NCBI GenBank assembly: GCA_004524435.1
Contig: SDNO01000004.1
Span: forward strand, 1-37,677
Direction of reading: 5' to 3'
DNA: 37,677 nt
From: Candidatus Thorarchaeota archaeon
Lineage (GTDB): Archaea; Asgardarchaeota; Thorarchaeia; Thorarchaeales; Thorarchaeaceae
Below the pieces are notes generated by a model that did no database searches, had not been told where the DNA came from, and saw only the letters and a program-made list of their open reading frames with translations. This document shows, piece after piece, positions 23,344 through 37,221 of the stretch; the first letter of the stretch is position 1; the number at the start of each line of letters is the position of its first letter. The position numbers and the translations under genes are program-made.

Positions 23344-25113
23344 CTAACTGATGAGTTTCTCAATCTCATCTTTCTGGCGAGCTATCTCATCAATAGGATT
23401 CCCAAACTCCAAGGAGCTCGCCGTGATATCGAGAGATTTTCTGAACATAGATACCCTTCCTTGAACAACCACATCCCGCCCTTGAATCTTCGGTCTTGCC
23501 AAGTCAATTGGTTCGGTCATGTTTCCTGTCTTCTCGATGAGTTTTTGAGCCTCATCTGCGGACATATCCAGCAACTGTTCCCCGGCCTCTCCGAATAGAG
23601 TCACGGTAATCGAGCCTGTTCCATCGTCTAGCACCACTTTGAACAGGGTCCTGTATTCCACATTTTCGATATCTCCGTGCACGTCACAGCTGAAGCCTTC
23701 TTCAGTTTCCTCAACCTTCTTACGGCAATCGGGACAGGCAGGGTATACCGGTCGGCTGTCAAAGATCTTCATAATATTGCCATAGATCTCGACATTCTTC
23801 TGGACCATGGATTCATCAATATCGCCAATCATGATTCTGTTTGCCCGTGTCGTAGGTCTGGCCGAAACCTCAGACACATCGAGTTCTTGCAGTGTGGAAT
23901 CGGAAGGATTCAACTCTATCTCACTTCGCCGCCCTGCATGGAATTCAACGCCACCGCGGAAGCCCTCTCGGACATATCCATGACGAACACGCACAACATC
24001 TTCTTCCTTGAGATCTGCTATCTCTTCAACATCGTCATTCCAGAAGGTCATTCTCGTGGTTCCCGTGTCATCTGCGACTATGATATTTTGAACACGCCCT
24101 TTTCCACCATCCCTCTCAAATTCATTGGGAGGAAATATCCGGATGACCTTCCCCTCGATGTCGACATCTCTCATCTCAACTGTCAAATCTTCAATATTCT
24201 TTCGTCCAAGAGGTTCGCTACTCACTCCGAAACCCTGAACTTCAACAGCATCAATGTCCTCTTCGACATCCCGTTCAATTATAGCTGACCTTCCAGAGTG
24301 GACCTCAACATCCCCATACCTTCCAGCCCGGGTGTAGGCCCCAGAGAGCCGGATGACCTCTCCCTCTTCTGCATCTTTCATCTGTTCTGCGTGCCCGTTC
24401 CAGAAGGTGACCCTTGTGCTGCCGGTTTCGTCAGCTCCAATCACGCTCAGAACCTTTCCTTCACTGCCATCAGATTTTCGTGTGAAGGTACTGAGTGGAA
24501 AGGCTCTTTGGACTTGAAACTTGATGCTAACGTCATACATATTCTCTTCCAGATTGGAGATGCTAGTTGTTTCATCTTTTGGAATTTCTATATCCAGATC
24601 ATCTAACTCGTATTCGTCTAGGACTTTCAGATTCCCCATTCTTCCCAGATTAAGCTCAAGCGAGTCTCTCAGACCTTTCTTCACGTAGGCATTTCGAATC
24701 TGAATGATACTCCCTACCGAAACGTAATCCTCAGAAACAGCTTTGGTCCGATCATCCCACAGGGCAACTCTCATCTTTCCGGTACTATCTGCAATCGTGA
24801 TGCTTGCAACTTTTCCTTCTCCTCCGTCAGACCTCGAAAAGGTCCGGACACCACTTACACCAACAACTTTCGCGGTGAGAGCGACGCTCCTTGTCGATTC
24901 CGTGATATCTTCAATCTTCATTCTTGCCCTAGCAGAGACTTGTTGGAGGTCAATCCCAAGCTCTCGAGCCACAATCATTGCGGCCGACTCCTCGTTGACA
25001 ACTTCGGGACCCAGCTCTTGTCTTTTCTCCTCAATCATTTTCATAATGTCTTTTCTCTCATATTCGGGAGAATTCTTCAGAATGAGCTGAATCGTTTCCT
25101 CTAGTGTTAGCAT
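23344..25113 (-). CDS. rpa: Replication protein A, single polypeptide with tandem OB folds and zinc motif
   Basis: Three repeated OB units (GGEGKVASITIADSTGKMRVALW / GSEGKVLSVIGADETGSTRVTFW / GGKGRVQNIIVADDTGTTRMTFW), then CPDCRKKV...CDVH zinc OB. Confidence 0.9.
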   Translation of the reverse strand: MLTLEETIQLILKNSPEYERKDIMKMIEEKRQELGPEVVNEESAAMIVARELGIDLQQVSARARMKIEDITESTRSVALTAKVVGVSGVRTFSRSDGGEGKVASITIADSTGKMRVALWDDRTKAVSEDYVSVGSIIQIRNAYVKKGLRDSLELNLGRMGNLKVLDEYELDDLDIEIPKDETTSISNLEENMYDVSIKFQVQRAFPLSTFTRKSDGSEGKVLSVIGADETGSTRVTFWNGHAEQMKDAEEGEVIRLSGAYTRAGRYGDVEVHSGRSAIIERDVEEDIDAVEVQGFGVSSEPLGRKNIEDLTVEMRDVDIEGKVIRIFPPNEFERDGGKGRVQNIIVADDTGTTRMTFWNDDVEEIADLKEEDVVRVRHGYVREGFRGGVEFHAGRRSEIELNPSDSTLQELDVSEVSARPTTRANRIMIGDIDESMVQKNVEIYGNIMKIFDSRPVYPACPDCRKKVEETEEGFSCDVHGDIENVEYRTLFKVVLDDGTGSITVTLFGEAGEQLLDMSADEAQKLIEKTGNMTEPIDLARPKIQGRDVVVQGRVSMFRKSLDITASSLEFGNPIDEIARQKDEIEKLIS

Positions 25114-25215
25114 CTCTCTCTTCCCCGTGATGGTGGTTTCAGTCTGTTGTGTTCTCAGTTAGGCTTTAAAGCTCACTGCTCGTTATGACCGAGTTCTGGA
25201 GATGCATATTGATTC

Positions 25216-30422: not shown

Positions 30423-31136
30423 TCACTCTTGTTGTATGTTGTCTTCAAGGGCAAATCCCCGGTCTTGGATTAGCAGTCTTATTCGAGCTTTTTCTGAGCG
30501 GAGATCCATTCGCTCAACCACCCTCTGAGAACTCGCATTACCAACCTTCAGCCTAAGTGTCACATCCGACCAGTATTCCATGATGTTCTTCGCCACCGGC
30601 TCGAAATCGTCAGTCCCATCAAGCTTAGCCCTGACCTGATTCAGTACCAAGACTGCAATACCCCTCTGACTAGCAATACCCTTCAGAAAACCAGCTTGCC
30701 GGTTGAGTTCCCGGTGTGCTGCATAATTCGTCTTCTTATCATCTAGGGAAACTCTATACAGGCGGGTTAGCGTATCAATCACGATAAGACGTGTACTCTC
30801 TGGAGCATAAAGCTCGAGATCTTCAATAATCTCTCCTTGTTCCGAGAAGTCTTTGGGCACAATGATATTGATGGCGTCCACAAGTTCTTGGTATGGTCTA
30901 CCGGCCATCTGTTCCAATCTCTCAATCGGTGAGGACCCCTCTGAGTTCACGTACACAGTGTGATATCCCATCCGAAGAGATGACAGGACGAATTCAAGTC
31001 CAAGAGTTGTCTTTCCTGATCCAGCTCTTCCATAGACATGAGTGATATTGCCCGTACGAATGCCCCCTCCAAGCATCAAATCGAGCCGTGAGATTCTGGA
31101 CGGAAGAGTCAAAGGGGATATCACCACAAGCGGCAT
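30423..31136 (-). CDS. radB: RadB recombinase paralogue
   Basis: GGIRTGNITHVYGRAGSGKTTLGLEFVLSS (Walker A), RLIVIDTLTRLYR (Walker B), VLVLNQVRAK. Confidence 0.92.
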   Translation of the reverse strand: MPLVVISPLTLPSRISRLDLMLGGGIRTGNITHVYGRAGSGKTTLGLEFVLSSLRMGYHTVYVNSEGSSPIERLEQMAGRPYQELVDAINIIVPKDFSEQGEIIEDLELYAPESTRLIVIDTLTRLYRVSLDDKKTNYAAHRELNRQAGFLKGIASQRGIAVLVLNQVRAKLDGTDDFEPVAKNIMEYWSDVTLRLKVGNASSQRVVERMDLRSEKARIRLLIQDRGFALEDNIQQE

Positions 31137-31182: not shown

Positions 31183-31959
31183 ATGTCACGTCCAGAGATT
31201 GCTATTGCCACTGAGAAGCCCAAGACTCTCTATTTGACGCTGGAGATTCTCAAGAAACTCGAGCTGTCTTCTGTCGTCTGCACCCCCAATGATAAGGCGT
31301 GCGGTTTAGCAAAGGTGCTTCTGTCCACAGAAGACGAGGCACCAGATCTCTCTGATTCCCGTCTTGTTCTACTGGGAGAAGAACCCGATGAGGAGCAAGT
31401 GCGAATCGAAATTTTCATGCGGCTGAATGGTATCACTTACCCATCAGTCATTGTTTCAGGTATTGACCCGGGCTATAGATACGGCCTTGCTCTGAATATG
31501 GATGAGATTGTGGTATCGACTCACATCACGCGTTCTCCTCTGAAGGCAGCTGATATTGTGTCCCACTGGAACAAATACATCTCAGAGAGCTATCCGGATT
31601 GTCGTTTTCTGATACGAGTGGGAACCGGATCCCCCCTCTATACAGTGCTCGTTCTTCGACCGATACTTGAAGAGATTTTCCCAACTGAAATTGAGCTGGT
31701 GGATGAGCATCACACGACCATTACCAGTGGTCCGGATGCCGACATATCATCGGCTGTCCTCATTGCCCTTAGACCCGGGGAGCCAATCACAACCTCGAGT
31801 CTAACACTGGAACCAAAGACAGGCCACATCCGTTCTCTTAAACGACTTGCTAACAGACTTACCAACGGACGCGTGGCCATCTCTACAAGTGAGGCAAAGA
31901 GAGTGCTAGCGGGCACCCTCTCGCTGAAGGAGATTGTCACTCCAACTCCGCGCCATTGA
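31183..31959 (+). CDS. RuvC/YqgF-like RNase H-fold protein (putative nuclease)
   Basis: SVIVSGIDPGYRYGLAL; ELVDEHHTTITSGPDADISSAVLIAL; separate N-terminal domain EIAIATEKPKTLYLTLEILKKLELSSVVCTP. Confidence 0.65.
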   Translation: MSRPEIAIATEKPKTLYLTLEILKKLELSSVVCTPNDKACGLAKVLLSTEDEAPDLSDSRLVLLGEEPDEEQVRIEIFMRLNGITYPSVIVSGIDPGYRYGLALNMDEIVVSTHITRSPLKAADIVSHWNKYISESYPDCRFLIRVGTGSPLYTVLVLRPILEEIFPTEIELVDEHHTTITSGPDADISSAVLIALRPGEPITTSSLTLEPKTGHIRSLKRLANRLTNGRVAISTSEAKRVLAGTLSLKEIVTPTPRH

Positions 31960-33880
31960 AGAAATCACTTACAGCAGAGGAGAGTATCTCCGGGCTATCT
32001 GGAATGCTTCGAACTATCTCTCCAAGCCAAGGAGGCATGAATCTCTTGAGATAGGGCGTATTGAACCTCTGGTCCAACAAGACTATCACGCCACGGTCAT
32101 CAAGTCGTCTGACCGGTCGACCTGCAGTCTGAATGGCACGGGTCATCGCCGGGAGAACATACGCATAGTCTCTCCCCCTCCGATTGAAACGGACATCGTA
32201 ATATGAAATCAAGGCATCTGTGCGTGGAGTTGGTCTCCCATAGGGAACTCCCACAACCACGACACTCTCCATTGTGGGTCCTGGGAAATCTCCTCCTTCT
32301 GAGTTCCTTCCCCCTTGTACACCTAGAAGAACCGCCCCACCGTCTTTTCCCTGACTCTTGAACTCCTCAATCATCTTGTCATTCTTCTTTCCTGCAGCCC
32401 CTTGCTCCTCAAGATACAGTTTTTTGGAAAGTTTCCTCTCTAGTCCTGCTCGTTGAAGCGCCGCCGCTATTCCATAACTAGTAGTGAAAATACCTGTATT
32501 TCCAGGAGTCGCTCCTACTACTGCAGCACAGTGTTCGACCATTCTTGCGAACATATCTTCCGAACGTGCATTATAAGAAGTATCTAGGCCCTCAACCACA
32601 AATCCGGTTCTGGTCTGATCGCTGAACGGGCTACGAAATGATACCTTTACAGACGTTTCCTCAAATCCCAGCATCTCGGCATAGGCCGAGAGTGGTGATA
32701 ATGTGCCAGAAACAGCCACCGAACATCGAATGAGTCGCAGTAAAGGACTTGTGACTGCCGTCGGGTCAAGTGCTACTCTCTCCAAGGCCATTCTTCTGCT
32801 CTGGCCTCTTCTAAGCTCAGATGAGAGTACAAAGGCGTAATCGTTCCTATCTGCGTAGTCCAACCAGTTGTCCATGAAATCCGCAACGCGATATATCGAC
32901 GACTTAGGGGGTTTTCCATGCCGAAGCTGGTTCTTTCGAATACTCGTCCCGAGTTCGTTCATATGAACCAGAGGATGCACTGTGTCCTCAGTTCCAGCCT
33001 CTTGTAGGGCTCTCTCATAGATTCCAACTGGATTGACAATCATCTCATCATTACTAGAAAGACCTGCCGAGATTTCGATGATAGACTGTGCTAAAGCTCT
33101 ACAGAAGTCGTTTGTCACTTCGTCGTTGTATGTGCGGCCTTCACGCATTGCTTGACGAATGATGCCGATGGTTAACCTATCACTCGCTGAGTCGAGTGCG
33201 GTGGACGGAACGTTATGCGCTTCGTCCTGAACGAGTACCACCCGCGACATAGGTATCTCCAGTTCTGGAATGAACGTTTCTCTGATGGACGGATCGAATA
33301 CATAGAGATATGAGAGAGCTATCACATCGACAGCCTTCGCTAGCTTCTTAGCCAGCTCATATGGGCAGAGATTGCGCTTTTTCGCAATTCGAGCTATCTC
33401 GGGTGCAGTCAGGATTTTCTTCGGCATCTTTGCAAGAAGGTCTTCTGGATAACCCAGTCTTTTGGTTCTCTCGTAGAAGGCGCATTTACCATCGGCTTTC
33501 AGTTGTTGACACATCTCACTGATTGAAACTACCCAGTCGACATTGTCCAGTACGAACTTATTGATGCACATATGACTTCGTCCACGAAATGACAGTCCCG
33601 AAACGTTTCTGACATCGTCAATCTGAGCGAGTTCCTCAACAACCCTATCCAGCTGCCGATGGGTTCTCGCGCAGTAGAGTATCTTCCCTCCGTTTATTTG
33701 AGTCCAAGGTAGAATCGCGCATAGCGTGGCACACGTCTTTCCAAATCCATTGGGCGCCTCACACAGAATATTCGTTCCTGAACGTACACAGCCCTCTATC
33801 CTATCCATCATGTCTGCCTGTCCAGCTCTTGCAGAGGCATAAGGGAAGAAGTCTTCATAGGATAGTTCCTGGTCACTCAT
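31937..33880 (-). CDS. XPD/Rad3-type DNA helicase
   Basis: CEAPNGFGKTCATL, Fe-S domain cysteines (MCINK...MCQQLKADGKCAFY...LCPYEL), VLVQDEAHNVP, QTAGRPVRRLDDRG. Confidence 0.91.
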   Translation of the reverse strand: MSDQELSYEDFFPYASARAGQADMMDRIEGCVRSGTNILCEAPNGFGKTCATLCAILPWTQINGGKILYCARTHRQLDRVVEELAQIDDVRNVSGLSFRGRSHMCINKFVLDNVDWVVSISEMCQQLKADGKCAFYERTKRLGYPEDLLAKMPKKILTAPEIARIAKKRNLCPYELAKKLAKAVDVIALSYLYVFDPSIRETFIPELEIPMSRVVLVQDEAHNVPSTALDSASDRLTIGIIRQAMREGRTYNDEVTNDFCRALAQSIIEISAGLSSNDEMIVNPVGIYERALQEAGTEDTVHPLVHMNELGTSIRKNQLRHGKPPKSSIYRVADFMDNWLDYADRNDYAFVLSSELRRGQSRRMALERVALDPTAVTSPLLRLIRCSVAVSGTLSPLSAYAEMLGFEETSVKVSFRSPFSDQTRTGFVVEGLDTSYNARSEDMFARMVEHCAAVVGATPGNTGIFTTSYGIAAALQRAGLERKLSKKLYLEEQGAAGKKNDKMIEEFKSQGKDGGAVLLGVQGGRNSEGGDFPGPTMESVVVVGVPYGRPTPRTDALISYYDVRFNRRGRDYAYVLPAMTRAIQTAGRPVRRLDDRGVIVLLDQRFNTPYLKRFMPPWLGEIVRSIPDSPEILSSAVSDFFNGAELE

Positions 33881-33991: not shown

Positions 33992-34348
33992 ATGAACAAA
34001 ACGGAGGCCCCGAGTGGCATAAGTGATTTTTCAGCAGAAACCAGCAAAGGCAAGCTCCTGTTTCGCTTGATGGAATTGGACAACGGCCTGATGGTACTAA
34101 TCTCGGATTCCAACAAATACAGAATCGGGCCTTCTGCAGTCGCAATCCCATCGAGCACAGGTCAGTCAGGTCCGTCCTCCACTGGGCTCTTTACGATGGG
34201 AGTTGACACCACACTGGTCAGAACTATCGCTGAGCGCCTGAGTGCATGGACTGCTCAACCTTGCATGGCTATCGTCGCCGTCAGCGACTTTGATCGCAGT
34301 ACTATGTTGGAGGTTGTGTCAATTCTGAAGGATCGCTTTGTGACTTGA
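33992..34348 (+). CDS. Small protein resembling proteasome assembly chaperone 4 (PAC4)
   Basis: LLFRLMELDNGLMVLISDSNKYRIGPSAVAIPS...TGLFTMGVDTTLVRTIAERLSAWTAQPCMAIVAVSDFDRSTMLEVVSILKDRF. Confidence 0.6.
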   Translation: MNKTEAPSGISDFSAETSKGKLLFRLMELDNGLMVLISDSNKYRIGPSAVAIPSSTGQSGPSSTGLFTMGVDTTLVRTIAERLSAWTAQPCMAIVAVSDFDRSTMLEVVSILKDRFVT

Positions 34349-36651: not shown

Positions 36652-36807
36652 TATTCTGGACAGTACAATACACTCTCAGTGTGGGCTATCTTGCCTGCTG
36701 TGTGTTTTATTTGTCTGTTGGACCATCAAAAAAGGCCTAGTACATTAATGCATACCACGATAGTCTTAAAAGCGGACCCCCAATCGAATCCGCTGAGGTA
36801 ACACAAA

Positions 36808-37221
36808 GTGAGCCACCGGTGGCTACGGTTCATTGTCAAGCCAAGAGTTAGACTAACACGGCCGCGTTTCACAGCACCAACACGGCCCCCAGATATCATC
36901 ATATTCGGCGTCATGTTCATCGTAGTTCTCTTTGTGCTTGGTGGGAACATCTACACGCTAGTCAAGACCCCGCCGCCTATTGCCACTGGTTCCGATGGTA
37001 ACCCCATTCTGATTGCTCCGACTCCCGAAGTCCAACTCGGGATGGAGGGTATTGTTTCCTCTGTGGTATTCTTTATGGGCACTCTTGGCCTTGGCTTGAT
37101 TTACTATTCATCCAAGTATGTACTCCAGCCCGGATATGCTTCTAGACTGATGATACTCGGTGCCATTCTTGCTGGCTCCGCATTCCTCATTATCACCTAC
37201 TTCTTTGGAATGAAGTATTGA
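36808..37221 (+). CDS. OST3/OST6-like membrane protein (oligosaccharyltransferase accessory domain)
   Basis: IIIFGVMFIVVLFVLGGNIYTLVKTPPPIATGSDGNPILIAPTPEVQLGMEGIVSSVVFFMGTLGLGLIYYSSKY...LAGSAFLIITYFFGMKY; resembles the MAGT1/TUSC3 TM region; GTG start. Confidence 0.7.
   Translation: MSHRWLRFIVKPRVRLTRPRFTAPTRPPDIIIFGVMFIVVLFVLGGNIYTLVKTPPPIATGSDGNPILIAPTPEVQLGMEGIVSSVVFFMGTLGLGLIYYSSKYVLQPGYASRLMILGAILAGSAFLIITYFFGMKY

Follow-up and report, generated by a model that had tools for sequence, protein, structure and literature searches.

A gene in the analysed window (a stretch of 37,677 nucleotides from a Thorarchaeia genome of 2.77 Mb, in 281 contigs and 87% complete) encodes a protein that belongs to a family found in two archaeal phyla, and is not an oddity of this window. 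The original prediction of a RuvC/YqgF-like nuclease beside recombination genes was upheld in that sequence, predicted fold, residue conservation and gene context all point to such a candidate. We lean, if only slightly, towards the explanation that the protein is a metal-dependent endonuclease of the YqgF type acting on recombination intermediates. The family may help to process crossed DNA strands during repair, since it has a RuvC/YqgF-like appearance and is frequently adjacent to DNA-recombination genes.

For part of the missing junction-resolving activity in Thorarchaeia, a concrete candidate is this conserved, unannotated RuvC/YqgF-like protein, whose gene lies head-to-head with that of RadB. 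The family would also show the role of a YqgF-type active site outside bacteria, and its presence in Thermoplasmatota, some of which are culturable, makes the idea testable. The features of the locus are listed in Table 1.

Table 1. Features of the nuclease-like gene and its neighbours, with positions in the window.
Feature	Position	Strand	Evidence
Uncharacterised gene, predicted YqgF-type RNase H-like protein, 258 aa	31183..31959	+	ORF, ATG start; homologues in 112/148 Asgard and 98/116 Thermoplasmatota genomes
Alpha/beta domain at the N-terminus, residues 1-82, unassigned to a family	31183..31428	+	AlphaFold secondary structure E6-9 H13-25 E45-49 E61-64 H70-81, high pLDDT
RNase H-like core, residues 89-196 (b1-b2-b3-aA-b4-aB-b5-aC)	31447..31770	+	AlphaFold model; Foldseek; same element order in 26%-identical homologue
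Putative catalytic Asp95, beta-1, G-h-D-P-G	31465..31467	+	138/138 conserved
Putative catalytic Glu175, end of beta-5, [DN]ExxTT	31705..31707	+	137/137 conserved where residue present
Putative catalytic Asp187, C-terminal helix, DxxSA	31741..31743	+	D in 99/137, H or N in 38/137
C-terminal helical region, residues 213-252	31819..31938	+	Three helices in model; absent from several lineages
RadB, divergent partner gene	30423..31136	-	Pfam Rad51 1.8e-18; head-to-head layout conserved across Asgard groups
46-bp intergenic region separating the two divergent start codons	31137..31182	.	Coordinates, sequence
XPD-like helicase, convergent neighbour, 23-bp overlap with 3' end of nuclease-like gene	31937..33880	-	Pfam DEAD_2, HBB, Helicase_C_2

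Distribution and sequence relatives of the family

The homologue counts were obtained by profile search of 148 Asgard and 116 Thermoplasmatota genomes, in which the family is about single-copy. The Asgard count was reached from 116 raw matches by dropping four that were weak, lay inside long frames and were taken as DUF460 cross-hits. A scan of the genome contigs with the window protein as a single query gave no matches, while a profile built from a narrower alignment (A2) succeeded; the same profile found no relative in the viral contigs searched. The nearest named homologues nearly all come from Candidatus Thorarchaeota. Apparent fusions at homologues within long open frames (e.g., L206, 726 aa) were rejected, because the parts upstream resemble antisense frames of low complexity in GC-rich DNA and do not look like domains.

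Neither Pfam nor NCBIfam has a model that covers the window protein. NCBIfam gave no meaningful match, and the sole Pfam match was DUF460, below threshold (12 bits against a cut-off of 28). Among 30 family members, 27 matched DUF460 weakly and 23 weakly matched the PHROGs family 'Holliday junction resolvase' (best E 2.7e-4); none matched RuvC (PF02075), and for none of them, the window protein included, was YqgF/RuvX (PF03652) listed at E <= 1. A PDB sequence search returned weak matches only, including Tex. In profile comparisons, hhalign gave a probability of 96% for DUF460 over 224 columns, extending to the C-terminal motif, and 52% for a four-sequence YqgF alignment, with the DER motif in register; just 11 columns were aligned with the single RuvC sequence of Escherichia coli.

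Judged by these comparisons, archaeal DUF460/COG2433 (PF04312) is the nearest sequence relative of the window family, yet it is a distinct protein. Both are archaeal and RNase H-like and share the G-h-DPG motif, and the long profile alignment together with the weak Pfam matches could be taken to mean that the window protein is a short DUF460 relative with the same unknown function. We find this very improbable, because a full-length DUF460 protein (about 600-700 aa, compared with 258 aa) co-occurs with the window family in most genomes, and DUF460 keeps a beta-4 acid (ATD) and has no beta-5 [DN]ExxTT motif, the reverse of the window family. The protein is provisionally regarded as a new family within a known superfamily. 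No description of it was found in the literature searched, arCOG and most subscription papers being outside that scope, and 'undescribed' is therefore to be read as provisional.

Predicted fold and putative active site

An AlphaFold model of the window protein, built from 30 aligned sequences, reached a mean pLDDT of 92.8 and a pTM of 0.88. In it, a complete RNase H-like core lies between an alpha/beta domain at the N-terminus and helices at the C-terminus. The extra N-terminal domain of the original prediction was recovered in the model, and its motif IAIATEKPKTLYLTLEILKKL is present in the protein. The C-terminal helical region is mostly or wholly absent from members L143 and L144 and from the Asgard groups f10, f15 and f17.

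A Foldseek search of the PDB matched the model with RuvC of Thermus thermophilus (4ep5, E 9e-5, probability 1.00) and with the RNase H-like domains of Argonaute and UvrC; TM-scores normalised to the whole query were low because the core alone aligns. When viral models were searched, phage RuvC-like proteins and Holliday-junction resolvases were prominent among the matches. A homologue from the DHVE2 group, with 26% identity to the window protein, was modelled as well; this model had a pLDDT of 88 and an identical order of elements, including the N-terminal domain and the C-terminal helices. Its best PDB matches were UvrC and the bridge-RNA recombinase IS621, which has a RuvC-like catalytic domain.

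The motifs quoted in the original prediction are all present, GIDPGYRYGLAL at residues 93-104, DEHHTT at 174-179 and DADISSAVLIAL at 185-196, and they are not chance resemblances. When residue conservation was scored over 138 homologues from the two phyla, Asp95 was invariant (138/138), as was Glu175 in all 137 homologues with a residue at that position. On the proposed C-terminal acidic helix the window protein has Asp187, but in the homologues this third position varies by lineage (D in 99, H in 23 and N in 15 of 137). Two grounds for rejection had been named beforehand, a model that is not RNase H-like and acidic residues unconserved in homologues; the model proved RNase H-like, two of the acids are invariant and Asp187 is mostly conserved. 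The fold and the conserved site are well supported computationally.

In YqgF the beta-4 glutamate of RuvC is missing, beta-5 ends with a conserved glutamate, and the last helix carries a single acid (PMC9601230); relocation of the acid to beta-5 has been described for both YqgF and Tex (PMC3985635). In the window protein beta-5 comprises residues 169-173, with Glu175 at its C-terminal end, and in the family alignment beta-4 reads R-h-G-x-G, with no acid. Since the acid sites fit the published description of YqgF, the layout of the active site is predicted to be of the YqgF/RuvX type, not that of RuvC or DUF460. This refines the RuvC/YqgF-like type originally proposed, with an acid ending beta-5 and, in the window protein, one acid on the C-terminal helix.

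The likeness to YqgF/RuvX comprises (i) the RNase H-like core, (ii) the beta-1 acid, (iii) the glutamate ending beta-5 in a DE-containing motif, and (iv) one acid on the C-terminal helix in the window protein, a position held by H or N in 38 of 137 members; the window family differs in adding the N-terminal domain and the C-terminal helices. RuvC and the phage RuvC-like resolvases share the fold and the GIDPG motif and are among the top structural neighbours. However, the beta-4 acid, the two acids of the last helix and the Holliday junction-binding helices preceding it, all features of RuvC (PMC9601230), are missing from the family. In the place of these helices the model has a 12-residue loop without a counterpart of them, which counts against our preferred explanation. 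The YqgF-like domain of Tex/Spt6 (PF16921; weak matches in 5 of 30 members) likewise has the acid shifted to beta-5, but its third acid is missing (PMC3985635) and its domain architecture is unlike that of the window family.

The presence of H or N at the third metal-binding position in 38 of 137 members counts against an active nuclease, the more so as YqgF-type sites have three carboxylates only (PMC9601230). The family could instead consist of largely inactive RNase H-like proteins that bind branched DNA as a partner or scaffold of RadB. This seems distinctly unlikely to us, given the invariance of the other two acids across two phyla and the H found at a helix position in RuvC of T. thermophilus and Deinococcus radiodurans (PMC9601230). 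In the endonuclease that we favour, Asp95, Glu175 and Asp187 would bind a divalent metal and hydrolyse the phosphodiester bond, and the N-terminal domain and the C-terminal helices would serve to bind the substrate or a partner.

Gene context: RadB and other neighbours

The divergent radB gene was found as predicted, with the start codons separated by 46 bp instead of 47; the reported overlap with the tail of the XPD gene is also real. Of 35 Thorarchaeia loci, 32 have RadB head-to-head with the family gene; the remaining three either lie too close to the start of their contig or carry other genes at that place. The same layout was observed elsewhere in Asgard in groups f2 (12/12), f18 (5/5), f12 (2/2) and f11 (1/3), and in f21 (6/6) the divergent partner is a degenerate RadB-like ATPase; RadB or such an ATPase thus recurs in six Asgard family-level groups. 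Two Thermoplasmatota genomes also carry a divergent RadB.

XPD adjoins the gene in 34 of 35 Thorarchaeia loci and is its neighbour in no other group, and CarS and PolD are neighbours in a few other Asgard loci; RadB is therefore the most persistent Asgard partner, and it stays adjacent in several groups where the remaining Thorarchaeia neighbours are gone. Counting against a RadB tie, the adjacency is absent from groups f10, f13, f15, f17, f22 and f23. In f17 (L164 2438-5992 and other loci) the gene in the divergent position encodes the large subunit of PolD, not RadB, and the residue at the third catalytic position is N in 5/5 members.

In 20 Thermoplasmatota genomes, the divergent slot held by RadB in Asgard is taken by Hjc (PF01870; Pfam Hjc 2.4e-11 for one of them), a nuclease with the PD-(D/E)XK fold, unrelated to the RNase H-like fold. 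In most of the other Thermoplasmatota, no recombination gene was found adjoining the family gene, which also counts against our preferred explanation. A RecJ-like DHH protein, Topo VI B, TopA, MutL and PolD are neighbours in single lineages. It should be noted that gene order is inherited and the neighbour counts are therefore not independent events; the informative context is the occurrence in two phyla and the switch of partner from RadB to Hjc. The link of the family to recombination is supported by this context.

The context also bears on another reading, in which the protein would cleave RNA in the manner of bacterial YqgF, which acts in the maturation of rRNA or the decay of RNA, and its recombination neighbourhood would be inherited gene order. 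Not every bacterial YqgF is a resolvase: that of D. radiodurans is an RNase that depends on Mn2+ and lacks resolvase activity (PMC9601230). This counts against our preferred explanation. An RNase is favoured by that finding together with the YqgF-type layout of the site, and by some Thermoplasmatota neighbours that, judged by sequence, encode ribosomal protein S15 or act in RNA modification. We regard an RNase as possible but doubtful, since RadB persists in several Asgard groups that have lost the other Thorarchaeia neighbours, Hjc occupies its slot in 20 Thermoplasmatota genomes, and RuvC-like DNA enzymes are favoured by the structure searches.

For the DNA endonuclease that we prefer, we infer a functional tie to RadB, a recombination mediator in Haloferax (PMC5480776). 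The enzyme would most likely work alongside RadB in homologous recombination, nicking branched DNA such as D-loops or, hypothetically, Holliday junctions.

Several other genes of the region were recorded. An RPA-like single-stranded DNA-binding protein with several OB folds is encoded at 23347-25158(-), adjoining PolD DP2 in the same replication/repair neighbourhood. A small PAC4-like protein (proteasome assembly chaperone 4; Pfam E 3e-7, just below the cut-off) lies at 33992-34348(+), and PAC4/PAC_bac-like small proteins are encoded directly downstream of the nuclease-like gene in homologue loci L152 and L169. The product of 36802-37218(+) is a membrane protein that matches the oligosaccharyltransferase subunit family OST3/OST6 (Pfam E 2e-9).

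Hjc and other junction nucleases

Hjc is the usual archaeal junction resolvase, a point raised in the original prediction that can now be sharpened. Hjc (PF01870) was detected in 1 of 38 Thorarchaeia genomes and went undetected in the other 37, where Hef/XPF is present; a custom Hjc profile, run on 59 relatives, agreed. PF01870 was likewise found in none of the 30 family-carrying f2 genomes. RuvC was found in none of the 59 relatives, and PF03652 had no match in Thorarchaeia and two weak matches elsewhere, one of which is the window family itself. ERCC4-family nucleases (Hef- and XPF-like) were present in all 59 relatives, so there are other routes of junction processing and the window family is not required to make up for a lost Hjc. 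For Haloferax, a reference cited in PMC5480776 describes Hef and Hjc in its title as defining alternative pathways.

Across the Asgard genomes, 22 carry both the family and Hjc, 90 the family only, 18 Hjc only and 18 neither, an anti-association (Fisher p 9e-4) that is uncorrected for kinship. Thermoplasmatota keep Hjc as well (98/116), and the two co-occur widely there. In view of this co-occurrence and the presence of Hef/XPF, the idea of a simple replacement of Hjc by the window protein was toned down. In its full form this idea is rather unlikely: the family would resolve Holliday junctions in archaea through a YqgF-type site, act together with RadB, and take the place of Hjc both in Thorarchaeia and in f2, a large Asgard group. 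The endonuclease that we propose would possibly cover part of the Hjc role in Thorarchaeia. The single Hjc match in Thorarchaeia (L260 544-1170, genome G010) is partial and perhaps lies on a mobile element.
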